Position numbers and translations under genes: made by a program
Part shown: positions 18,107-32,009 of the stretch, piece by piece
Layout: the number at the start of each line of letters is the position of its first letter
Position numbering within the stretch: the first letter of the stretch is position 1
NCBI GenBank assembly: GCA_902775385.1
Contig: CACYMI010000028.1
Location: forward strand, 1 to 34,515
Direction: 5' to 3'
Source: an uncultured Bacteroidales bacterium
GTDB taxonomy: Bacteria > Bacteroidota > Bacteroidia > Bacteroidales > Bacteroidaceae
DNA: 34,515 nt
Notes under the pieces: model-generated
What the model saw: only the letters and a program-made list of their open reading frames with translations
Databases searched by the model: none
Told to the model about the DNA's origin: nothing

Positions 18107-19205
18107 ATGTCTCTTTTCATGTCCTATTGTCTAAAACAGCGTCAATAGGCCTGTTCGTGCACTCCTTTCACAGCCCGGCCGCTGGGATCGTTCATATTCC
18201 TGAAAGCCTCGTCCCACTCCAGGGCTATGGCCGTAGAGCAGGCTACGCTGGCCTCTGAGGGTACGCTGCGGGCAGCTGAATCGCTGGGGAAGTGCTCGGC
18301 AAAGATACTGCGGTAGTAATACTCCTCCTTGTTCCCTCGGAGGTTATCTGCTTCAGGGTGTCAATCCAACTGTAGCCTACGCCATCGCTGAACTGCTCTT
18401 TCTGACGCCAGGCCACCTCATAGGGCAGCATGTCGGCAAAGGCCTCGCGGACAATGCGCTTCTCTATCTCAAAGCCGGATTCTCCGGATTTCTTAGGGCC
18501 GCACATCTTGGCTTCCGGGTTGGTACGCATGGCTACGTCCAGGAACTCCTTGTCCAGGAAGGGAACACGTCCCTCTACACCCCAGGCACTCAGGCTCTTG
18601 TTGGCACGAAGGCAGTCATAGAGGTAAAGCTTGCCCAACTTGCGCACGGTCTCCTCGTGAAAGTCCTTGGCAGACGGGGCCTTATGGAAGTAGAGGTAGC
18701 CTCCGAAAATCTCATCGGCACCCTCACCGCTGAGTACCATCTTGATGCCCATAGACTTGATGACACGGGCCAGCAGGTACATGGGTGTGGAAGCGCGGAC
18801 GGTAGTCACATCGTAGGTCTCTATATAGTAGATAACGTCGCGGATGGCATCCAGGCCCTCTTGGATGGTATAGTTGATTTCGTGGTGCACGGTGCCGATA
18901 TGGTCGGCCACCATCTTGGCCTTGGCCAAATCAGGAGCGCCCTTCAGTCCGACTGCAAAGCTATGCAGACGGGGCCAGTAGGCACGGGTCTGGGAATTGT
19001 CCTCGATACGGTGCTGACTGAACTGCTCGGCAATAGCAGAGATGACGCTAGAATCCAGACCGCCACTGAGCAATACACCGTAGGGCACATCACTCATCAG
19101 CTGACGCTTCACAGCAGCCGTAAGACCGTCGCGGATAGCCTCCACACTGGCGGGATTATCCTTCACAGCATCATAACTGAACCAATCGCGCTGGTAATAG
19201 CGTTT

Positions 19206-19309
19206 AAGTGAAGAGTGAAGAGTGAAGAGTGAAGAATCAAGTGAAGAATCTGCGCTGAAACTCTGTGCGGAAGCAAATTCTTCACTCTTCACTCTTAAAT
19301 CTTCACTCC
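19206..19309. repeat. AGTGAAG heptamer repeats inside asnB
   Basis: Tandem AGTGAAG units (four at 19206-19234, one more just after) face oppositely oriented copies (TTCACTC) at 19279-19309, forming an inverted array. They are read in frame as RVKSEEF...SSLDSSLFTLHSSL, between the glutaminase and synthetase domains. Confidence 0.8.
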
Positions 19310-19540
19310 AAAGGTAGTGGCCCGGCAGGAAGGGCTCGTAACGCTCACACTGGCCCTCAAGGGCTTTCAGTTCGCTGGCAACATATACCGTGCCGTCACT
19401 GTCGTAGCCTATATATAAAGGTATAACGCCAATGGGGTCACGGGCAATCAGGAACGCATCCCGCTCCTCATCGTACAGCGCAAAGGCGAAGATGCCGTTC
19501 AACTGTTCCAGCATAGCACAAATTTGCTCATGAGTAACAG

Positions 19541-19645
19541 AACTCCCCTCTCCAACGGAGTTCCCCTCGCCCAAAGTGTTCCCCTCGCCCACGGGAGAGG
19601 GGTCAGGGGTGAGGCCGGGGTTAGGGGTGAGGCCGGGGATAAGGC
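19541..19645. repeat. GC-rich hairpin element inside asnB
   Basis: Core CCCCTCGCCCACGGGAGAGGGG forms a near-perfect stem; beside it an 18-nt unit is tandemly repeated. It is read in frame as LTPDPSPVGEG followed by six-residue repeats GEGNTL, GEGNSV, GEGSSV. It replaces a short loop in the glutaminase domain. Confidence 0.8.
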
Positions 19646-19998
19646 TTTTGTACAGCGCCAGGACCACTTCGCAGTCGCTGCCCGTCTGAAACTCATACTG
19701 ACCGGCATAGCGGCGACGAATCTCCTGATGGTTATAAATCTCACCGTTAACGGCCAGTACCTGCCGGTTATCGGGGCTATAGAGGGGCTGCCTGCCGCTC
19801 TCAGGGTCCACGATACTCAGGCGCTCGTGTGCCAGAATGGCCGAGCCGCCACAATAGATTCCACTCCAGTCAGGTCCACGGTGGCGGATCTTCTGACTCA
19901 TCTTCAATGCCTTCTCTCGCAGTTCATGAGACTGCTGCCTGATGTTAAATATGGCTACTATTCCACACATAATGTTACAGTTTTACATAATTTGAGCG

Positions 19999-20030
19999 CA
20001 AAATTAATACATTTTGCAATTACAACCAAG
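19999..20030 (-). promoter_or_regulatory. Promoter of asnB
   Basis: Minus strand CTTG (20027-20030), 20 nt, TAATTTTG (19999-20006). The -33 box has one mismatch. The leader would be about 20 nt. Confidence 0.55.
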
Positions 20031-20113
20031 TTTTACGAATGCATTTTTACACCTAAATAGCATATTTTATTAACATAAAGCAAGTGAACGCGCATCTTCA
20101 TTGCCATAATGAC

Positions 20114-20152
20114 AAAAAAAGAGCCCCTTCTATCCGCAAACAGATAGAAAGG
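20114..20152 (-). terminator. Terminator of the 43-residue membrane protein transcript
   Basis: Minus-strand hairpin CCTTTCTATC / GATAGAAGG followed by GGCTC and seven T residues (20114-20120). It lies about 110 nt after the small ORF stop and 110 nt before the asnB promoter. Confidence 0.55.
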
Positions 20153-20260
20153 AGCCCCTTTTCATTCTTATTATAATACTGAATCACATCGCCGGCATGG
20201 GAACAGAGCGAAGGCTTAACATCACGCAGACTCAGGTCATCAATTATTCCTCATTTCCAA

Positions 20261-20392
20261 TCATGCTGCCATTGCCCCACCATTCTCATGAGTGTTCTGT
20301 TCCTTACTGACTGCACTATTACTCTCACGACGCTGTTTCTCCTCGTTTGACAAAAGGAAAAGCATAAAGAATACTGTAAATACTATCCACAT
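20261..20392 (-). CDS. 43-residue single-pass membrane protein
   Basis: The ORF starts MWIVFTVFFMLFLLSNEE, one clear transmembrane helix (about 2-15), followed by a short polar tail with EKQRRES and ending NGGAMAA. It has no recognised family. Support for it being a gene: a TAACTTTG -7 box about 28 nt upstream, a hydrophobic segment at the extreme N-terminus, a charged positive/negative tail and a terminator downstream, all on the same strand in a space that otherwise has no gene. It sits between carAB and asnB, both amidotransferase genes. Small membrane proteins often modulate a larger transporter or kinase, but nothing here identifies a partner. The alternative is a leader or small RNA of about 300 nt from the same promoter. 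Confidence 0.55.
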   Translation of the reverse strand: MWIVFTVFFMLFLLSNEEKQRRESNSAVSKEQNTHENGGAMAA

Positions 20393-20419
20393 AATTTTAT
20401 TGTTTAACGTTTTCGAATG

Positions 20420-20427
20420 CAAAGTTA
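20420..20427 (-). promoter_or_regulatory. Promoter -7 box of the 43-residue protein
   Basis: Minus-strand TAACTTTG matches TAnnTTTG. There is no TTTG at the -33 position; an inverted repeat (20437-20455) is centred there instead. Confidence 0.5.
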
Positions 20428-20436
20428 GGCGAAGCC

Positions 20437-20455
20437 TGTACCATAGGTCGGTACA
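20437..20455. promoter_or_regulatory. Inverted repeat TGTACC-N7-GGTACA
   Basis: A 6-bp inverted repeat with a 7-nt spacer lies exactly over the missing -33 box of the 43-residue protein promoter. It is a candidate activator or repressor site. Confidence 0.35.
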
Positions 20456-20557
20456 CCCGGAAGAAAAATGCAGTTTTTTTTATTTTTCTTTCAAAAATCA
20501 GCATTTTTTTCTGGCTTCAGACCCTCGAATCAGCTTTTCCGACCTGTCAGAAACAAG

Positions 20558-20584
20558 CGAAGGGAAGCAAAATGCTCCCCTTCG
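20558..20584. terminator. Hairpin after truncated carB
   Basis: CGAAGGGAAGC pairs with GCTCCCCTTCG (one mismatch, 5-nt loop). It lies 84 nt beyond the carB stop. There is no strong T-run, so a terminator call is tentative. Confidence 0.4.
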
Positions 20585-22361
20585 TCACAAATTTACTTTC
20601 TGTACCTTATAAATAAATAAACTCCGATTGTGCTTTACCTCTCAGGTTATTTGCTTAAACCCTAACGTTACACGTAAGAAAGATACAGATAATTGGTCTG
20701 AGCCGGATACTCCGCCGCCATTGTGTCTATCTGATTGACATAGGGCTTGATGCCAAGATCCTGACGCCACTTGCGGATGATGAGGCCGGCCTTCTCCATG
20801 TTCATATCACACTCTCCGAGTCCGATGGCTCGGGCAATCTGGAAGTCGGAGAAGCCATATACCTTGGCCTCGTGCAACAAGGTGGCAAACTCAGGTTCCT
20901 CGATGTACTCCAGCAACTCCAGCGGCTCCATGAACGTGTACATGTCAGACAGATGCGAGAACTCCTGCAGTCGGTCGTTGATGCGGATGATATGCTTCAG
21001 CTTCTGCAGGAACCAGCGGTCAATCTTGGTAAGGTCATGAATCTGATCAACCGTATAACCCATCATCATTGCCTTGGCAATGACAAAGATACGGGTGTCG
21101 GTGGCATGCTTGAGGGCATCAGGAACATCGGTCACGTGCTGCGCCTTATTATCCACAAAGCCGTGCATGCCCTGCCCTATCATACGCAGTCCCTTCTGGA
21201 CAGACTCCTCGAAGGTACGGCCGATGGCCATTACCTCGCCCACACTCTTCATACTGGAGCCCAACTCATGGTTCACACCGTGAAACTTGGAAAGGTCCCA
21301 ACGCGGAATCTTGCATACCACATAGTCCAGGGCAGGCTCGAAGAAGGCGCTGGTAGTCTTGGTAACAGAGTTCTTCAACTCGAACAGGCCATAGCCCAGG
21401 CCCAACTTGGCAGCCACGAATGCCAGGGGATAACCCGTAGCCTTGCTGGCCAGAGCGGAAGAACGGCTCAGACGGGCATTTACCTCGATGACACGGTAAT
21501 CCTCAGAATTGGGATCGAAGGCATACTGCACATTACACTCGCCTACAATGCCGATATGGCGGATAATCTTGATGGCAAGGGCGCGCAGCTTATGGTACTC
21601 GCTGTTAGACAAGGTCTGACTGGGAGCTACCACAATACTCTCTCCTGTATGGATACCGAGGGGGTCGAAGTTCTCCATGTTGCAGACGGTGATACAGTTG
21701 TCATAACGGTCGCGAACCACTTCGTACTCTATCTCCTTCCAGCCCTTCAGGGATTTCTCTACCAGCACCTGAGGCGAGAAGGAGAAGGCCTCCTCTGCCT
21801 GAGCCTCCAGCTCAGCCTCGTTATCACAGAAACCTGACCCCAAGCCGCCCAGTGCGTATGCCGCACGCAGGATGACAGGATATCCCAGCTCTGCCGCTGC
21901 CTGGCGAACCTCCTCGCGGGTGTTGCAGGCCTGGCTCTTGATGGTCTTTACGCCAATCTCGTCCAGCTTCTTCACAAACAGATCGCGGTCTTCCGTATCT
22001 ATAATGGCCTGAACGGGTGTTCCCAACACCTTCACACCATATTTCTCCAGAACACCTTTCTGGTACAGCTCCACACCACAGTTCAGGGCGGTCTGCCCAC
22101 CGAAACTGAGCAGGATGCCGTCAGGACGTTCCTTCTCAATCACACGTTCCACGAACTCGGGGGTTACAGGCTGAAAGTAAACCTTGTCTGCCACCCCCTC
22201 GCTGGTCTGAACGGTAGCGATGTTGGGATTGATGAGCACGCTCTCCACACCCTCTTCCTTCAGCGCTTTCAGCGCCTGTGCGCCGCTATAGTCGAACTCG
22301 CCGGCCTGCCCTATCTTCAGGGCACCAGAACCCAGGAGGAGAACCTTCTTAATAGTGGCAG

Positions 22362-22475
22362 CCTCACCCCCATCCCCTCTCCGGAGGGCGAGGGGAGCCG
22401 ATTCTTTTTCTGCCACACTCTCGCCTTGAGAATATATTCTCCCCTCGCCTTTCGGAGAGGGGCCGGGGGCTGAAC
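22362..22475. repeat. Double GC-rich hairpin element at the carA/carB joint
   Basis: Two inverted copies of the hairpin core lie here: one around CCCCTCTCCGGAGGGCGAGG, one around CCCCTCGCCTTTCGGAGAGG. It is translated as PGPSPKGEG...LALRRGDGGEAA and bridges CarA and CarB in one frame. The CarA tail after FHPEACS is lost here. Confidence 0.75.
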
Positions 22476-22969
22476 AGGCCTCGGGATGAAACTGGGCAGA
22501 GAACCAAGGGTTTGTCTTATGACGGACACCCTCGTTAGAGCCGTCGTTCATATTTACGAAGAGCGGCTCCCAGTCGGCGGGCAGGGTGCTGGCATCTACG
22601 GCATAACCATGATTCTGACTTGTGATGTAGCACTCCGTCGTGCCCACCTGCTGAACCGGCTGGTTATGGCTGCGATGACCGTACTTCAACTTATACGTCT
22701 TGGCACCGGCAGCACGGGCCAGCAACTGGTTACCCAGGCAAATACCCATCAGGGGCTTCACCTCTTTATTGTTCAGGAAGGTACGGATGTGTTCCACGGT
22801 CTTGCCGCATTGCTCAGGGTCGCCGGGACCGTTGGCCAGGAAGAGACCGTCGAACTCCAGCTCATTGAAGTCGTAGTCCCAGGGCACACGGATAACCTCC
22901 ACACCTCTCCTGAGCAGGCAACGGATGATATTGGCCTTTACGCCGCAATCCACTAAGACTACCTTCTTT

Positions 22970-23003
22970 AGTTGAGAGTTGAGAGTTGAGGGTTGAGAGT
23001 TGC
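22970..23003. repeat. GTTGAGA heptamer repeats inside carA
   Basis: Four GTTGAGA/GTTGAGG-type units in tandem, read in frame as NSQPSTLNSQL just before KKVVLVDCGVK. Confidence 0.75.
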
Positions 23004-23082
23004 CGGGCTTATAGGTGATAACCTCCTTGCAACTTACCTTCTCCACCCAGTTGACGGAACCGTAATCTTCATTCAGGTTATC

Positions 23083-23140
23083 GCTCCCCTCGCCCACGAT
23101 GTTCCCCTCGCCCACGGGAGAGGGGTTAGGGGTGAGGCAG
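23083..23140. repeat. GC-rich hairpin element inside carA
   Basis: Same core as in asnB (CCCCTCGCCCACGGGAGAGG), with one extra 18-nt unit. Read in frame as LTPNPSPVGEGNIVGEGSDN after HGVMRGRIC. Confidence 0.8.
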
Positions 23141-23384
23141 ATTCTGCCCCTCATCACACCGTGCTCACGCAACAGCTTGGTGAGACGGCGGGTATCAATG
23201 CCAGAGATGGCAGGGATGCCCTCACGCTTCAGCCAGCTGCTGAGCGACTCCTTGGCATTCCAGTGACTATATTCCCCGCTATAGTCGGCAACAATCAAAC
23301 CCTTAGGGTGAATACGGTCACTCTCCATAAACAAGGGCAGACCGTCTGCGCCAATACCCGTGCTTGGCACGCCATAGTTACCTA

Positions 23385-23507
23385 TCAGCGGAAACCCATC
23401 ATAGCTGTATTGAAAACCACCTCGCCTACAGTATTCACCTCGGCACCGAACGACCAGCCGCTGTATACCGTTCCGTTATCCAATATCAATCTTGCTTCTC
23501 TCTTCAT
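23385..23507 (-). pseudogene. carA: Amino-terminal fragment of carbamoyl-phosphate synthase small subunit
   Basis: 40 codons from ATG at 23507, four bases after the purF stop: MKREARLILDNGTVYSGWSF, then GEVVFNTAMMGF, after which the frame hits TGA at 23385. Relatives continue with about 18 residues (a YPESLTDPSY-like segment) before PLIGNYGVPST. Here PLIGNYG follows at once but in another frame (from about 23391). This shows a deletion whose length is not a multiple of three. The remaining carA continues in the 900-codon frame downstream. Confidence 0.8.
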
Positions 23508-23511
23508 ATTC

Positions 23512-25234
23512 TTATTTTCGTAGCTTTAAATTCTGTTCAACGTAATTTACGAAAGCCTCATTCACCAGCTTATTGCCGCCGGGAGTTGGGTACTGACCGG
23601 TAAAATACCAGTCGCCCTGATGTTCGGGACAGGCTGCATGCAGCCCCTCTATGGTCTGGAAGACGAATTCCACCGGTGCCTGCATACCTACAGGACGCAG
23701 CATCTCTGCCATCTTGCGGTTGATGTCATCCACCGTGAAAGGCTTATACAGGCCACAGACACAATTGCGTTGTTCCGCTTTCGGCTTGCGCAGTTCCGCA
23801 TAGCATGCCTCGTAGGTATCGCTAACCAACTGCCACAGGCCGCGCTCTGTCAGCAAGGCTATGGTAGCACGGAAGGCTATGAACTCCTCCAGTCGGGCCA
23901 TATCTATACCATAATAATCGGGGTAGCGAATCTGGGGCGAGCTGCTTACCATCACAATCTTCCTGGGGTGCAAACGGTCCAGAATCTTGAAGATGCTCTC
24001 CCTAAGCGTAGTGCCGCGGACAATGCTGTCGTCAATGATTACCAGATTGTCAACATCAGGCTCCAGGGAGCCGTAGGTGATATCATAGACGTGCAAACGT
24101 ACGCAGCTTAATATCCTTCCAGGCCACCTTCTCGCTTCGGACATTCAGTCCCTTGTTGCGCAGACCTTCCACCATACCGTAGAAGGCAACCTCGGCCGTA
24201 TTGGGAATGAAGGAGAAAACGCTGTGGTCCGTTTCCCCGCCGATGGCTTTCAGGATAGGCTCCGTCAGCTGCTGACCCAACTGCTTGCGCTCACGGTAGA
24301 TGTCACGGTCGGAACCTCGGCTGAAATATATTCGCTCGAACGAGCAGCGCGCCTGCTCTTTGGCCTCCAGGATGGTTTCCAGACAGGAGGAGCCGTCCTT
24401 ATGCACAATCAGCGCCTTGCCGGCCGGCAGTTCCCGCACATCATCCACCTGCAAGTCAAAGGTCGTCTGCAGCACAGCCCGCTCGCTGGCCAATGCCATC
24501 ACCTCATCATCCATATAGTAGAAAGCCGGACGGATGCCCCAGGGATCGCGCATGGCAAACATCTCGCCTGAGCCCGTCATGCCGCACATCACATAGCCGC
24601 CGTCATAGTCGGACATCGTGGTGCGCAGCACATTGGCCATCTGCACGTTGTCCTCAATGTACCGTGTCACAGCCCTGTTCTCCAATCCCTTCTCCTTAGC
24701 CTCAGCATAGCAGCGCTCCACCTCACGGTCCAGACGGTGTCCCATCAGCTCCAGGGTGATATAGGAATCACTATAGATACGTGGTGACTGGCCCTGTTGG
24801 ACAATCTTGTCGAATATCTCATCGATGTTGGTCATGTTGAAGTTGCCGCACAGGCACAGGTTTTTGGCCCGCCAGTTGTTACGGCGCAGGAAGGGATGCA
24901 CGTACTGCAGACCGCTCTTGCCTGTGGTGGAGTAACGGAGGTGGCCCATGTATAATTGGGCCTCGGTCCACTCGGGTGTTATGCGGTCGAAAATCTCTGT
25001 AATGGCATCCTTGCCCAGCGCCTTCTCACGCAACATATATTCCGTACCCACGGCGGCATCCATATTCACACAGGCAATACCCGCACCTTCCTGGCCGCGG
25101 TTATGCTGTTTCTCCATCATCAGATAGAGTTTGTTCAGACCGTACGACTGCGTTCCGTACTTCTGCGTATAATAGCTCTGCGGTTTCAGGAGGCGAACCA
25201 ATGCCACACCGCACTCATGCTTCAGTTGTTCCAT
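23512..25234 (-). pseudogene. purF: Amidophosphoribosyltransferase-like PurF, frameshifted
   Basis: The 5' frame (24083-25234, 383 codons) begins MEQLKHECGVALVRLL; Cys8 is the likely nucleophile after propeptide removal, and EKQHNRGQEGAG, GHLRYSTTGKSG and RDPWGIRPA follow. It ends at a joint near 24094 after KDIKLRTF. The 3' frame (to 23512) resumes with HVYDITYGSLEPD, the PRPP-binding LVIIDDSIVRGTTLRES, then SSSPQIRYPDYYGIDM. About 12 residues between LRTF and HVYDI in relatives, as I recall them, are missing, giving a frameshift. PurF makes phosphoribosylamine from PRPP and glutamine, the first purine step; this Bacteroides-type form is a distant paralogue whose exact role I cannot confirm. 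It is followed at 4 nt by carA and preceded by pyrG, so the three probably share a transcript. Confidence 0.8.
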
Positions 25235-25243
25235 ATATTATAA

Positions 25244-25273
25244 ATGAAGAATGAAGAGTGAAGAATGAAGAAT
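25244..25273. repeat. GAAGAATGAAGAGTG heptamer repeats between pyrG and purF
   Basis: About four ATGAAGA/GTGAAGA units fill nearly all of the gap between the pyrG stop and the purF start. Confidence 0.75.
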
Positions 25274-25275
25274 TA

Positions 25276-27045
<1,770 letters not shown>

Positions 27046-27098
27046 TTATCGAACAAAAAGAACACCACGAACGCACATGAGAATGAACCGGCCCCCTC

Positions 27099-27809
27099 TT
27101 ACAGATGAAAACCAAGGCCGCAGAGCAGGTACATCTTGCCGCTGTCCGGGTTGGCGTTGAGGCCAACGAAGATGGGCAGGTGGTACTTCTCCTTAATAAC
27201 AAAGTCCTTGGTAGCCTTCAGCCCTACACTGGTGCAGGCAAAGCCGGTGGTACCGTATATGGTAGTGGCCCAGGGCACAATGCCTACGCTACCCTCCCAA
27301 TCCAACTTAGCCAGGCGGAAGGGCGCTTTCAGTTCGATATAGCTGCTGTAAGCCCGGTTCAGGCTGTTGTTCAGACCATCGTCGCCGGCAAAGTTGGTGT
27401 ACCATGTGGCAGTAAAGTACTTGAAGTCATACCCCACGAATCCTTCCCAGATATGGGTGGTCTTACCCGATTTATACTGGAAGTAGCTGCCGTTAGAGAA
27501 CCAGTAATCGGTCAGACCTACCGTAAAGCCTTTTGTACTATAGCTGAGGGTAATATCCAACTCCTTGGTATCCTCGGCACGGGTAATGCCTACACTTCCC
27601 CAAGCCGATAAGCTCAGGCCTTTCCACGATACACCAAGGGTCGGCTGTAACGACACATTCCCTAAGTCCTGGCCACGCCAGATGTACTGGTTTACGAGGT
27701 CAACGCCCAAGTTTGCCTCTACTTTATCCTGGGCACAAAGAGGTGTTGATACAGATAATATGGTCACTAGCCCTATGACAATAGAGCCTACTTTAGATAT
27801 AGTTTTCAT
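27099..27809 (-). CDS. TorF-like outer-membrane beta-barrel protein
   Basis: 236 residues. MKTISKVGSIVIGLVTILSVSTPLCAQ is a signal peptide. The mature protein is an alternating beta-strand barrel with VDLVNQYIWRGQDLGNVSLQPTLG, the RGxD/LGN signature of Gcw_chp/TorF-type putative porins, repeated amphipathic strands (LSLSAWGSVG, GFTVGLTDYWFSNG) and a hydrophobic aromatic-poor C-terminus MYLLCGLGFHL. In Bacteroidales such genes are often found next to amtB-glnK, as here (downstream of amtB, same strand). It may admit ammonium or small nitrogen compounds across the outer membrane; that is inference from context only. The gap before it is filled by repeats. Confidence 0.75.
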   Translation of the reverse strand: MKTISKVGSIVIGLVTILSVSTPLCAQDKVEANLGVDLVNQYIWRGQDLGNVSLQPTLGVSWKGLSLSAWGSVGITRAEDTKELDITLSYSTKGFTVGLTDYWFSNGSYFQYKSGKTTHIWEGFVGYDFKYFTATWYTNFAGDDGLNNSLNRAYSSYIELKAPFRLAKLDWEGSVGIVPWATTIYGTTGFACTSVGLKATKDFVIKEKYHLPIFVGLNANPDSGKMYLLCGLGFHL

Positions 27810-27840
27810 AAAAAAATCTTTAAATGATTAATAAACAAGA

Positions 27841-27943
27841 GCCTCACCCCGGCCCCCTCCCGTGGGAGAGGAAGAATTTAGGGGGTTAGAGGTTAGAGGT
27901 TAGCAAACTTATATTTTTCACTTTTCACTCTTTCACTCTTCAC
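27841..27943. repeat. Mixed repeat block between amtB and the TorF-like gene
   Basis: A hairpin-family copy (CCGGCCCCCTCCCGTGGGAG, 27849-27868) is followed by tandem AGAGGTT units and then TTTCACT/CTTCACT heptamers ending at the amtB stop. Both repeat families meet here in non-coding sequence. Confidence 0.75.
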
Positions 27944-29209
27944 TTAATTATAGCACAACTCGCCATGCTCGTAAACATCCAGGCCCTCATCCTCGATACG
28001 GGCAGGAACGCGCAAGCCGTGAATCTTCTTAATGGCAAAGAAGAGGACGATACCGCAGGCAGCAGCCCACAGGTCAATCATCAGAATGCCAAAGCACTCG
28101 GCCCCGAAGAAGCCCCAGCCATGACCATACAGAGCACCGTTGCTGGTGGAGAGCAAACCCGTCATCAGCGTACCCAAGATACCGCACACACCATGAACCG
28201 AGCTTGCGCCCACAGGGTCATCGATGTGCAAACGGTGATCAATAAACTCAATAGAGAATACCAGCACCGTTCCGCAAACCAGGCCGATAATCACGGCACC
28301 CAGCGGAGACACCAGGTCACAGCCGGCCGTAACACCTACCAATCCGGCCAGCACACCGTTCAATGTCAGGGAGAACGAAGGCTTCTTATACCTGAGCCAG
28401 GTCAGGAACATCGTAGCACAGCCACCAGCTGCGGCAGCCAGGTTCGTTGTCAGGAACACATGGCAGATAGCCGTACGGTTAACGGCACCAGAGGCAGCCA
28501 GCTGAGAACCGGGATTGAAACCGAACCATCCCATCCACAGGATAAACACACCCAGCGCAGCCAGCGTCAGAGAGTGACCGGGGATAGCCCTGCTCTTACC
28601 ATCCTTACCGTACTTACCCCTACGGGCACCCAGCACAATAGCACCTATCAGCGCCAGCACGCCGCCCACACTATGCACAATGGCAGAGCCCGCAAAGTCA
28701 TGAAACACATCTCCGAAGGTTGTCATCATGAAACCGTCGGCAGCATCGTTGCAAAGCCAGCCGCCGCCCCAGGTCCAGTGACCCTCGATGGGATAAATCA
28801 GCAGAGAGATAATGGCGCTGTAAATAACGTACATCGAGAACTTGGTACGCTCGGCCATGGCACCGCTCACAATCGTAGCACTGGTAGCACAGAACACCGT
28901 TTCAAAGATCAGGAAACCCTCTACGGGCAGGTCTCCCTTGTAGAAAGAGAGGTCGCCCCAGTTGGGCAGACCCACAAAGCCTCCCAGCACATCACTTCCG
29001 AACATAAGTCCGAAGCCCACCAGCCAGAACAGCAAGGAGCCGAACATAAAATCCACAAAATTCTTAAACAGGATGTTCACCGTATTCTTACTGCGCGTAA
29101 AACCAGCCTCACAAAGGGCAAAACCCGGCTGCATGAAAAACACCAGCATCGCAGCCAACAACATCCATACCGTATCTAAAGATAAAGACAAACTATCCAT
29201 AATCATCAT
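27944..29209 (-). CDS. amtB: Ammonium transporter
   Basis: 421 residues and about 11 hydrophobic segments. Motifs of the Amt/Rh family are GFALCEAGFTRSKN (near 31-44), FHDFAGSAIVHSVGG (pore His region, near 168-182), LWMGWFGFNPGS and DPVGASSVHGVCGILGT (second pore His). It imports ammonium across the inner membrane. There is no cleaved signal peptide. Its ATG overlaps the glnK stop (ATGA), so translation of the two is likely coupled. GlnK blocks the AmtB pore when nitrogen is ample. The TorF-like porin lies downstream on the same strand. Identification is firm. Confidence 0.95.
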   Translation of the reverse strand: MMIMDSLSLSLDTVWMLLAAMLVFFMQPGFALCEAGFTRSKNTVNILFKNFVDFMFGSLLFWLVGFGLMFGSDVLGGFVGLPNWGDLSFYKGDLPVEGFLIFETVFCATSATIVSGAMAERTKFSMYVIYSAIISLLIYPIEGHWTWGGGWLCNDAADGFMMTTFGDVFHDFAGSAIVHSVGGVLALIGAIVLGARRGKYGKDGKSRAIPGHSLTLAALGVFILWMGWFGFNPGSQLAASGAVNRTAICHVFLTTNLAAAAGGCATMFLTWLRYKKPSFSLTLNGVLAGLVGVTAGCDLVSPLGAVIIGLVCGTVLVFSIEFIDHRLHIDDPVGASSVHGVCGILGTLMTGLLSTSNGALYGHGWGFFGAECFGILMIDLWAAACGIVLFFAIKKIHGLRVPARIEDEGLDVYEHGELCYN

Positions 29210-29553
29210 TTTTTATCACGTAAAACAACATCACCATGCTCACCCGTACGGATGCTCCAGGTATCAATCATATCACTCACGAAGATACGTCCGTCGCCAA
29301 CCTCTCCGGTATGCGCCGTCCGGATAATCACCTTAATGGTAGAATCCACAAACTGTTCGCGGCACACAATACTGATAGCCACACGCTCAATAACGTCAGT
29401 AGAATACTGGACACCACGGTAGATACGCTCCTGGCGGCTCTGGCCAATGCCATGCACGTCATGGTACTCAAACCAGTCAATGTCAGAGGACAACAACGCC
29501 TCCTTGACATCCTCAAACTTTGTCTTTCGGATAATCGCTTCAATCTTTTTCAT
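29206..29553 (-). CDS. glnK: P-II nitrogen regulatory protein
   Basis: 115 residues from ATG at 29553 (MKKIEAIIRKTKFEDVKEAL). The T-loop IGQSRQERIYRGVQYSTD has Tyr50 at the place of the uridylylated Tyr51 of E. coli GlnB. The B-loop is RTAHTGEVGDGRIFV (near 81-95). It is a cytoplasmic trimer that binds ATP/ADP and 2-oxoglutarate and controls AmtB. An in-frame extension to 29757 is rejected because the promoter at 29631-29663 lies inside it. It overlaps amtB by 4 nt and faces away from dapF-dapL-gltB. Naming it glnK rather than glnB rests on the amtB pairing. Confidence 0.93.
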   Translation of the reverse strand: MKKIEAIIRKTKFEDVKEALLSSDIDWFEYHDVHGIGQSRQERIYRGVQYSTDVIERVAISIVCREQFVDSTIKVIIRTAHTGEVGDGRIFVSDMIDTWSIRTGEHGDVVLRDKK

Positions 29554-29630
29554 AAGACATCTGTTTTTTTCGAAGATTAATAATGTTAATAAATGAGCGT
29601 CCTGTGTGTCACATTGCAATGTTTTCGGTG

Positions 29631-29663
29631 CAAAGGTATGGCAAAATGTTGCTATCGGCCAAA
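29631..29663 (-). promoter_or_regulatory. Promoter of glnK-amtB
   Basis: Minus-strand TTTG (29660-29663), 21 nt, TACCTTTG (29631-29638). It is a near-consensus Bacteroidetes promoter giving a leader of about 70 nt. No sigma-54 motif is seen here. Confidence 0.7.
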
Positions 29664-29776
29664 TTTTTATTGCAAAAAGACGCATCCAAGACAACAACAA
29701 TTGATGTATGTCAATAAAAACAACAGTTAAGACATCTTTTTGAAACAAAAATATCAATTAATCTGCCTAAAAGCAA

Positions 29777-29784
29777 TACCTTTG
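29777..29784 (+). promoter_or_regulatory. Promoter -7 box of dapF-dapL-gltB
   Basis: TACCTTTG, the same core as in the divergent glnK promoter, 49 nt before the dapF ATG. There is no TTTG at the -33 distance. Confidence 0.5.
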
Positions 29785-29833
29785 TGTCAGAAATAAGCAA
29801 AGTGACAACAAAGAAGAAAGATTCATTCGCAAA

Positions 29834-30688
29834 ATGAAAGATAAAATCCGTTTTACCAAAATGCATGGGGCAGGCAACGACTACATCTACGTTGACAGTA
29901 CCTTATATAATATAAAGGACCCTGCCGCTGCCGCCCGCCTCTGGAGCGACCGCCACAAAGGCATCGGCTCAGACGGACTGGTACTGATCGGACGATCCAG
30001 GATGCCCGAAGCCGACTTCACCATGCGCATCTTCAATGCCGACGGCTCAGAGGCCATGATGTGCGGCAATGCCAGCCGTTGCATCGGCAAATACCTGTAC
30101 GAAAGGACCCACCCCTGGCCCCTCCCTGTAATGGAGGGGGATGGTTGCAAAGAAACAGCAATAAGGCTATTGACCATGTCCGGAATTAAAATACTTCACC
30201 TCCATATTGTCAATGAGATTGTTGAGAGCGTAACCGTTGACATGGGCGAGCCCGTTTTCCAGGACGAAAGCCAGTTCAACCCGGCCTACGCCCCCATCGC
30301 CCCCCATACTGAGGCTCTGTTTGTCAGCATGGGCAATCCTCACTACGTAATCTTCACCGATGACGTAGATGCCGTTGAGACATCAGGAAAAGAATTAGAA
30401 CACCACAACGCGTTTCCCCAGCGCGCCAACATCGAATTTGCCGATTTGCGTCCTGAAGGCATTCGGGTGCGCGTCTGGGAACGCGGCAGTGGTATCACCC
30501 AAGCCTGCGGAACAGGCGCCTGCGCCACGGCAGTAGCCGCCTGCAAGACAGGACGGGCAGGACGCAAGAGCCGTATCATCATGGACGGCGGCACCCTGGA
30601 GATAGAATGGAACGAGGCCGACAACCATGTGTATATGACAGGTCCGGCCGAGTTCGTGTTTGAAGGAGAGATAGAAAGTCATGAGTGA
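29834..30688 (+). CDS. dapF: Diaminopimelate epimerase
   Basis: 284 residues. It interconverts LL- and meso-diaminopimelate for lysine and cell-wall synthesis. Landmarks are [13 protein letters not shown] at the start, the first catalytic Cys in [15 protein letters not shown] (near 76-90), [10 protein letters not shown], and the second Cys in [14 protein letters not shown] (near 220). An extra proline-rich stretch [13 protein letters not shown] follows KYLYER; it is a repeat-element insertion into a loop just after the first Cys. The last residues ESHE and the stop are formed by the direct repeat flanking the palindromic element downstream. It is followed at about 95 nt by dapL, the preceding step of the same pathway. 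Confidence 0.93.
30105..30146. repeat. GC-rich hairpin element inside dapF
   Basis: CCCCTCCC-TGTAAT-GGAGGGGG hairpin core, read in frame as [11 protein letters not shown] diverged copy of the family. Confidence 0.65.
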
Positions 30689-30771
30689 AGGCTGCGATTA
30701 AGCGAGAGGAGAGTGAAGCTTGCTTCAACTTTCCCGAGCGTGAGCAGGCTCGACCGCAGGTCAAGAGTGAA
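30678..30771. repeat. Palindromic element flanked by direct repeats, dapF/dapL gap
   Basis: GTCATGAGTGAA (30678-30689) and GTCAAGAGTGAA (30760-30771) flank about 70 bp. Inside are the terminal inverted CTGCG/CGCAG, a GAAGC-TT-GCTTC dyad and a CGAGC...GCTCG hairpin. It looks like a small REP/MITE-type element. The left repeat contains the dapF stop. Confidence 0.6.
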
Positions 30772-30782
30772 TAATTAAGATT

Positions 30783-32009
30783 ATGAAGATAAACAAGCAT
30801 TATACAGAATTATCGGGCAACTATCTGTTTGCCGAGATTGCCAGGAAGGTACAGGCCTTCAAGGCAGAGAATCCCCAGGCGGATGTCATAAGCTTAGGCA
30901 TTGGCGACGTAACACAGCCGCTCTGTCCGGTAGTTGTGGAAGCCTTGCACAAGGCAGCCGACGAGATGGCAGTTGCCGCCACCTTCCGCGGGTACGGTCC
31001 CGAGCGGGGATATGACTTCCTGCGCAATGCCATTGTAGAGAACGACTACCGTTCCCGCGGCATAGACATCGATGCCGACGAGGTCTTCGTCAGCGACGGA
31101 GCCAAGAGCGACACCGGCAACTTTCAGGAACTGCTGGCTGAGGACTGCGTAGTAGCGGTCACAGACCCCGTCTATCCCGTCTATGTGGATTCCAATGTGA
31201 TGGCAGGCCGGCGTATCGTAAAGCTGCCCTGCACGGCAGAGAACGGTTTTGTGCCAGAGCTGCCCGCAGAGCACGTGGACGTCATCTACCTGTGCTATCC
31301 CAATAACCCCACCGGAACAACACTCACCAAGGAGCAGCTGAGGAAATGGGTGGACTATGCACTCCAGAGCGGCGCGATCATCTTCTACGATGCTGCCTAC
31401 GAGGCTTTTATCCAAAGCGAAGATGTACCGCACAGCATCTACGAGATACCCGGTGCCAAGGAGTGTGCCGTGGAGTTCCATAGCTACAGCAAGACTGCCG
31501 GGTTTACAGGTATCCGCTGCGGCTACACCATCGTACCCAAAGGAGTGAAAAGTGAAGGAGTGAAAAGTGAAAAATATGATTTAGCGGGAACTGTATCACT
31601 TAATGCACTCTGGAGCCGCCGTCAGAGCACCAAGTTCAACGGCACCAGCTACCTCAGCCAGCGGGCTGCCGAGGCCATCTATACCCCTGAAGGCAAGCAG
31701 CAGATCCGTGCCACCATCGACTACTACATGCAGAATGCGCGATTGATGCGCGAGGCATTGACCGATATAGGATTCACCGTTTATGGCGGAACAGACGCCC
31801 CCTATCTATGGGTAAAAGTGCCTGGCCTCACCCCCGTTGGCGAGGGGAGCTCATGGGGCTTCTTTGACTGGATGCTCCAGAATGCCCACGTAGTATGCAC
31901 ACCCGGAGCCGGCTTCGGCCCTAGCGGAGAAGGGTATGTAAGACTGACCGCCTTCGGCACCCATGAGAACACAGAAAAGGCAATTCGCCGTATAACCAAC
32001 AGACTGTAA
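30783..32009 (+). CDS. dapL: LL-diaminopimelate aminotransferase
   Basis: 408 residues, a class I/II PLP enzyme. It makes LL-diaminopimelate from tetrahydrodipicolinate and glutamate, the one-step lysine route used by Bacteroidetes. Seen are [53 protein letters not shown], and the PLP-lysine in [15 protein letters not shown] (near 238-252). Two in-frame repeat insertions disturb the family pattern: [14 protein letters not shown] (near 254-264) and [11 protein letters not shown] (near 350). It is co-directional with dapF and with gltB (25 nt downstream); glutamate made by GltB is its amino donor. Confidence 0.94.
31541..31575. repeat. AGTGAAAAGTGAAGG repeats inside dapL
   Basis: Two GGAGTGAAAAGTGAA units in tandem, read in frame as [10 protein letters not shown] in a surface loop after the PLP-lysine segment. 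Confidence 0.75.
31824..31850. repeat. Partial GC-rich element inside dapL
   Basis: GCCTCACCCCCGTTGGCGAG and following bases match half of the hairpin family. Read in frame as LTPVGEGSS. Confidence 0.65.

Follow-up and report, generated by a model that had tools for sequence, protein, structure and literature searches.

The window analysed here, 34,515 nucleotides (nt) of an uncultured Bacteroidales bacterium (assembly GCA_902775385.1, contig CACYMI010000028.1), is one contig of a fragmented genome of 2.49 Mb that is 80% complete. Its genus is called Prevotella-like, because the Prevotellaceae contig L091 carries CarAB and AsnB with 73 and 76% identity to the window proteins (G and L numbers are our handles for genomes and loci). 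The window contains copies of a GC-rich palindromic repeat, most of them inside the genes of conserved enzymes (asnB, carA, pyrG, dapF and dapL). The arm of this repeat has the layout AGCCTCACCCC-NNN-CCCCTCNCC-loop-GGNGAGGGG-A, and complete copies are inverted doublets of it. A second kind of dispersed repeat, formed by heptamer-type arrays, likewise lies in frame in asnB, carA and dapL. The features are listed below, with the approach behind each in brackets.

19198..19316, minus strand: inverted heptamer array of the TTCACTC family, in frame in asnB, absent from the sister genome G095 (repeat search, comparison, folding)
19541..19633, minus strand: GC-rich arm in asnB with a duplicated head, GLTPNPGLTPDPSPVGEG, and three 18-nt GEGxxx units (pattern scan, sister-genome comparison)
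22361..22469, minus strand: inverted doublet, two arms and a spacer, forming the CarA-CarB linker (alignment, folding)
22968..23000, minus strand: heptamer-type array in carA, reading NSQPSTLNSQL (repeat search, alignment)
23083..23139, minus strand: GC-rich arm in carA, LTPNPSPVGEGNIVGEGSD (alignment, triplex geometry)
26478..26552, minus strand: insert of a related GC-rich subfamily in pyrG; several relatives are short at this site (alignments)
27839..27875, plus strand: degraded non-coding arm, upstream of the open reading frame (ORF) 27099-27809 and downstream of amtB (pattern scan)
27903..27944, minus strand: intergenic heptamer-type array (repeat search)
30105..30147, plus strand: insert of a related subfamily in dapF, shared by G015 and lacking in the five other relatives compared (alignments)
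31544..31585, plus strand: heptamer-type array in dapL, an inverted copy of the intergenic array 27903-27944 (repeat search)
31821..31850, plus strand: shortened arm in dapL, reading GLTPVGEG (pattern scan, alignment)

A pattern scan for the exact hairpin core, CCCCTCNCC N2-8 GGNGAGGGG, returned four window sites, at positions 19581-19602, 22374-22395, 22441-22462 and 23104-23125. The first-pass annotation of this DNA had listed seven copies with a common core. Three of them, at 19581, 22374 and 23104, do carry it, and the site at 22441-22462 had been missed. By eye, the copy at 31824 in dapL is a shortened arm and the non-coding copy at 27841 a degraded one, while the copies in pyrG (26481) and dapF (30105) belong to related GC-rich subfamilies that are without this core. 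The seven copies are not one uniform set. The same annotation had seen none in the first 18 kb, and in the scan this region gave no hairpin at up to two mismatches. Folding was compared with 200 shuffles; the doublet 22361-22469 (z −6.2) and the heptamer array 19198-19316 (z −7.1) both beat all 200. A scan of the window against Rfam at gathering thresholds gave no match.

The repeat is dispersed. The window's own genome holds 18 hairpin cores and none of the reversed control pattern, which supports the view that the copies are related beyond GC-rich chance; the supposed restriction to one gene cluster does not hold. Of 139 genomes in the genus, 82 carry arms, 1 to 50 in each and none for the control, so that their number ranges from 0 to 50 between species. 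In the genus-wide scans for the arm, TTCACTC and GTCAACTY, individual copies are those among the matches listed, and among these one loop variant tends to be common to the arms of a given genome. The core was present in 20 of 41 genomes of the genus and order. In named genomes, at least 118 stretches from many phyla carry the arm; the 80 matches listed come from Bacteroidota, Chloroflexota, Cyanobacteria, Planctomycetota, Proteobacteria, Acidobacteriota and others, and the named isolates include Prevotella veroralis, P. conceptionensis, Hymenobacter negativus and Xanthomonas cannabis. The doublet structure is seen in G018, where many similar inverted doublets stand at unrelated places and have arms, ends and parts of the spacer in common; 17 among the copies seen there are doublets of this kind and measure 117-156 nt including the ends AG...CT. 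In-gene doublets of other species are 84-98 nt at the shortest and 168 nt at the longest.

Its sequence makes the arm a register variant of a published motif, the intrastrand triplex (TM/PIT/BoxC). In the predicted triplex geometry, three window arms form 8 of 9 Watson-Crick pairs and 9 of 9 third-strand triads, and the same three would qualify as class II triplexes, with three 9-nt blocks and at most one mismatch. According to Holder et al. 2015 (PMC4666352), TM_ECO/PIT/BoxC has, like the arm, one C-rich block followed by two G-rich blocks, a 3-nt second loop of the TTA or CCG type, frequent close inverted pairs and a copy number that differs strongly among relatives. The register is different, CCCCTCNCC here and CCCTCNCCC there. 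The exact TM_ECO consensus, CCCTCNCCCN3-6GGGNGAGGGN3GGGNGAGGG, was absent from the window and from all 130 genus loci, and occurred in 9 of the 118 loci from the scan of named genomes. In E. coli MG1655 the motif is described by Holder et al. as always intergenic, whereas in the present genus a third to a half of the classified arms lie in coding frames.

The reading frames stay open through the inserts in asnB, carA, the CarA-CarB linker, pyrG, dapF and dapL, as the first-pass annotation had stated for conserved enzymes. Orthologues from 6 to 20 relatives per protein were aligned. For AsnB, PyrG, DapF, PurF and CarAB, some species are filled at the insert site and others empty, while the alignment listing for DapL orthologues contained no gap cluster. 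Compared with solved homologues, the inserts of AsnB, PyrG, DapF and DapL coincide with alignment gaps, the AsnB insert falling between residues 109 and 113 of 1ct9. The window exceeds the sister genome G095 by a heptamer array of 84 nt and, in asnB, by stretches of 36 and 30 nt, all multiples of three. The 30 nt correspond to the head unit, and the 36 nt to the GEG units, three in the window and one in G095; the 18-nt stepwise expansion of asnB noticed in the first pass is thereby borne out. Between the same genes, opposite window positions around 25240 and 27824, G095 (L240) has tandem words of other kinds, among them GGTTAGY and AGGAAGTTAAAT.

Variation at a site shows most clearly in the CarA-CarB linker. 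Of 21 species, 19 gave a readable linker, and 11 of these 19 fold as hairpins with z below −2.5. The carB control windows gave mean z values between −0.8 and 0.3; single control windows reached −5.3, and one control each in G018 and G099 equalled the linker in folding. The 11 hairpin linkers come from three sequence families: the GC triplex family and its subfamilies (G000, G074, G015, G087, G086), another GC palindrome (G016, G099) and an array of the octamer GTCAACTY (G018, G075, G005, G003). Overlapping octamer matches numbered 78 in G018, 38 in G010, 28 in G003 and 19 in G075; G000 and seven others had none. The octamer makes up the linkers of G018, G003 and G075 but not that of G010; G005 and G096 have octamer-type linkers with 2 and 0 exact matches in their genomes. 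Because of G010, G005 and G096, the agreement between the octamer count of a genome and its type of linker is incomplete. The TTCACTC array is commonest in G000 (20 matches), followed by G008 (16).

At 20668-23370 the window encodes a fusion of CarA with a CarB of half length. This form is common to the close relatives, with open frames of about 940-1025 residues, and other members of the genus have longer CarA-CarB frames of about 1450-1520 residues. We rejected an insertion as the cause of the fusion, since the closest relatives share the half-length form and the other members a longer fusion. The best solved match of the fusion is human CPS1, and G000:C19 contains a CarB-like match apart from it.

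The position of arms relative to genes was evaluated for 145 arms in the fetched genus loci, chosen because their left flanks differed and sufficient sequence was present to either side (4 were dropped). The thresholds of the coding score were set by us and calibrated on three window genes, and a stricter score served as a second pass. An open frame with coding-like flanks holds 69 of the arms (53 at the stricter score), 50 are flanked by coding sequence on one side only and 19 on neither side; the remaining 7 stand between flanks both scored as coding on one strand, with no open frame joining them. Counted by site, 51 of 119 are in frame (38 at the stricter score). Sense arms are read as LTPxPSP in 32 cases, as ASPPTPL in 5 and as PHPxPL in none (22:5:0 at the stricter score), and fuzzy arms gave 34 in the LTP frame and 9 in others; a smaller listing had shown the LTP frame nearly alone. 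The count of 32:5:0 is a preference for the LTP frame. Antisense arms use the GGEA frame 20 times and the GVR frame 12 times, and never the third, which contains TGA. Beyond the genus, some long ORFs, putatively coding, contain arms in more mixed frames. Two examples are L037 and L106, whose ORFs presumably resemble, by their motifs, the leucyl-tRNA synthetases of Cytophagales and Ferruginibacter. At L290, L294 and L302, arms at gene starts seem to provide the first residues ahead of a segment resembling a signal peptide.

The first-pass annotation had further suggested that the element is tuned for translation, and this was not supported. The length of in-gene doublets is a multiple of three at 24 of 30 sites and never leaves a remainder of one (17 of 23 multiples at the stricter score); at other sites it is so in 12 of 21, with three leaving a remainder of one (19 of 28 at the stricter score). 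Since a similar share is found outside genes, the element itself largely sets the length, which is no proof of selection. Of 21 non-genic doublets, 6 have an open LTP frame and 7 are open on the other strand, and most contain stops. The in-gene doublets, a set assembled by hand from the arm classification (L380 2339 entered via a wildcard), are open in 23 and 25 of 27, respectively; as openness is built into the in-gene call, this contrast shows filtering at most. Among 34 sense arms in the LTP frame, 2 of 12 deviations fall on the third codon position, which leaves peptide-level selection unsupported.

In-frame palindromic repeats are already known (Rickettsia palindromic elements, RPE; intragenic repetitive extragenic palindromes, REP; ERIC-type elements), and we compared the repeat with several described systems. 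RPE are palindromic units of 105-146 bp that occur between genes and, in frame, within conserved protein genes (PMC2229807, PMC3733652). The likeness drawn by the first-pass annotation is apt, in that a dispersed palindrome occupies conserved proteins in frame and relatives have empty sites; it is one of description; the arms here are a triplex repeat, and unrelated families occupy the same spots. Intragenic REPs with GTAG/CGTC (Di Nocera et al. 2013, PMC3733652) are also unevenly distributed palindromes, with dimers inside ORFs that encode 20-30 residues. The repeat shares with REP/REPIN the palindromic arm and the inverted doublets in many copies, and by eye the terminal-repeat motif GGGGWSAS of TIRYT (PMC3733652) fits GGGGTGAG in the arm. 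Unlike those REPs, it bears no GTAG or CGTC tag, the doublets of G018 ending by eye in AGCCTCACC...GGTGAGGCT, and its arms were not found bordering a tyrosine transposase gene. TAACTGA arrays (PMC4679880) are likewise scattered 7-nt tandem arrays, with some Bacteroidetes included, but the heptamers in the window are others, in part form inverted doublets and lie within genes. PARCEL repeats (PMC2996958) are translated palindromic DNA repeats spread between taxa; they differ in forming tandem 25-residue domains in proteins of unassigned function rather than inserts in metabolic enzymes. The literature searched, with subscription papers and preprints outside its scope, did not describe the triplex motif within genes of Bacteroidota. 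As far as this search goes, the triplex family inside Bacteroidota proteins and the occupation of the same spots by unrelated repeat families across species are new.

A likely explanation is that the element is a non-autonomous palindromic repeat that behaves like a REP/REPIN, of which in-frame copies at tolerant spots of genes survive. The repeat would multiply within genomes as single arms or inverted doublets, moving as a single-stranded hairpin by means of an enzyme that acts in trans. After landing in a gene, a copy with an open frame in a tolerant spot, probably a surface loop, would be retained, and the host enzyme would then be made with, and tolerate, an extra Pro/Gly-rich segment, LTPxPSPxGEG.... 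Slippage would account for the expansions and perhaps for the arrays. Rather more tentatively, we propose that a few enzyme loops and linkers serve as standing landing sites, where whichever palindromic family is active in a lineage rebuilds the same linker in frame species by species, and that the GC-rich triplex repeat prefers one codon phase.

Several observations weigh against a mobile repeat maintained in this way. Profile searches of 25, 29 and 20 genomes led us to reject a Y1/RAYT transposase (PF01797) as the resident mobiliser: the family is absent from G000, from 10 of 29 genomes reached via 30 loci chosen among the 118, and from 6 of 20 genomes of the genus that were selected because they bear arms. 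In the 78 PF01797 loci scanned, no TIRYT-type flanking of the transposase gene by arms was found. Arm-like stretches with two mismatches occur at L161, L204, L431, L437 and L438; arm and hairpin together at up to three mismatches were met only in L431, which scores below the family cut-off and has them far from the gene. No target duplication is visible by eye in the G018 doublets. Nor are the sites clean insertions, as adjoining residues are lost too: the CarA tail GPTDTEWMFDEFV or a variant is present in all 18 relatives read and lost in the window. The single asnB arm with its expansions folds like shuffled DNA (z 0.1), and doublet length and codon position, as described above, give no sign of selection. 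The window also shows frameshifting losses relative to the sister genome, 58 nt in asnB (18334) and 35 nt in purF (24094), which are either real decay or assembly error, and the genomes compared are mostly incomplete. Separately, the Y1 transposase gene that G013 carries at L157 has another palindrome at its borders, a repeat with CCCAGGGC...GCCCTGGG.

The lack of a linked transposase would suit an origin by local slippage and template switching, in which nothing is mobile and the dispersal is mere appearance. The 18-nt and head-unit expansions between sister species, the heptamer and octamer arrays, which are prone to slippage, and the unrelated families at the same spots also point that way. 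The same 25 specified bases, however, recur at unrelated sites, in unrelated genomes and phyla, with control counts of 0 where a control was run, and doublets at unrelated places in G018 agree in their arms, their ends and some of the spacer; we therefore regard slippage alone as unlikely. Ribosomes skip the byps elements of yeast mitochondria, and the stable hairpins within coding sequence, together with a doublet length that fails to separate genes from non-genes, would be compatible with an untranslated segment here as well. Skipping would not require an open frame, and the 53-69 coding arms that keep one, against 7 that do not, make it very improbable. An artefact of metagenome bins, for which one could cite the fragmented state of the genome and the frameshifting deletions, deserves still less credence, as the repeat is carried by the 82 genus genomes and by named isolates. 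Pro/Gly-rich linkers are common and the pyrG and dapF copies divergent, as they might be if the stretches were ordinary conserved loops or chance GC-rich sequence. For the main copies the comparisons already speak against this, since, contrary to the refuting case set by the first-pass annotation, several orthologues are without the stretches, different families fill the same spot and the controls gave 0, and its probability is close to negligible.

The non-autonomous REP/REPIN-like repeat that we favour links a biophysically studied motif of unknown biology, the triplex motif, with protein evolution. The same enzymes with empty and filled spots form a natural series in which one can test what translated repeats cost and how they are inserted. 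For annotation they are a warning, as such repeats would resemble species-specific segments of proteins.

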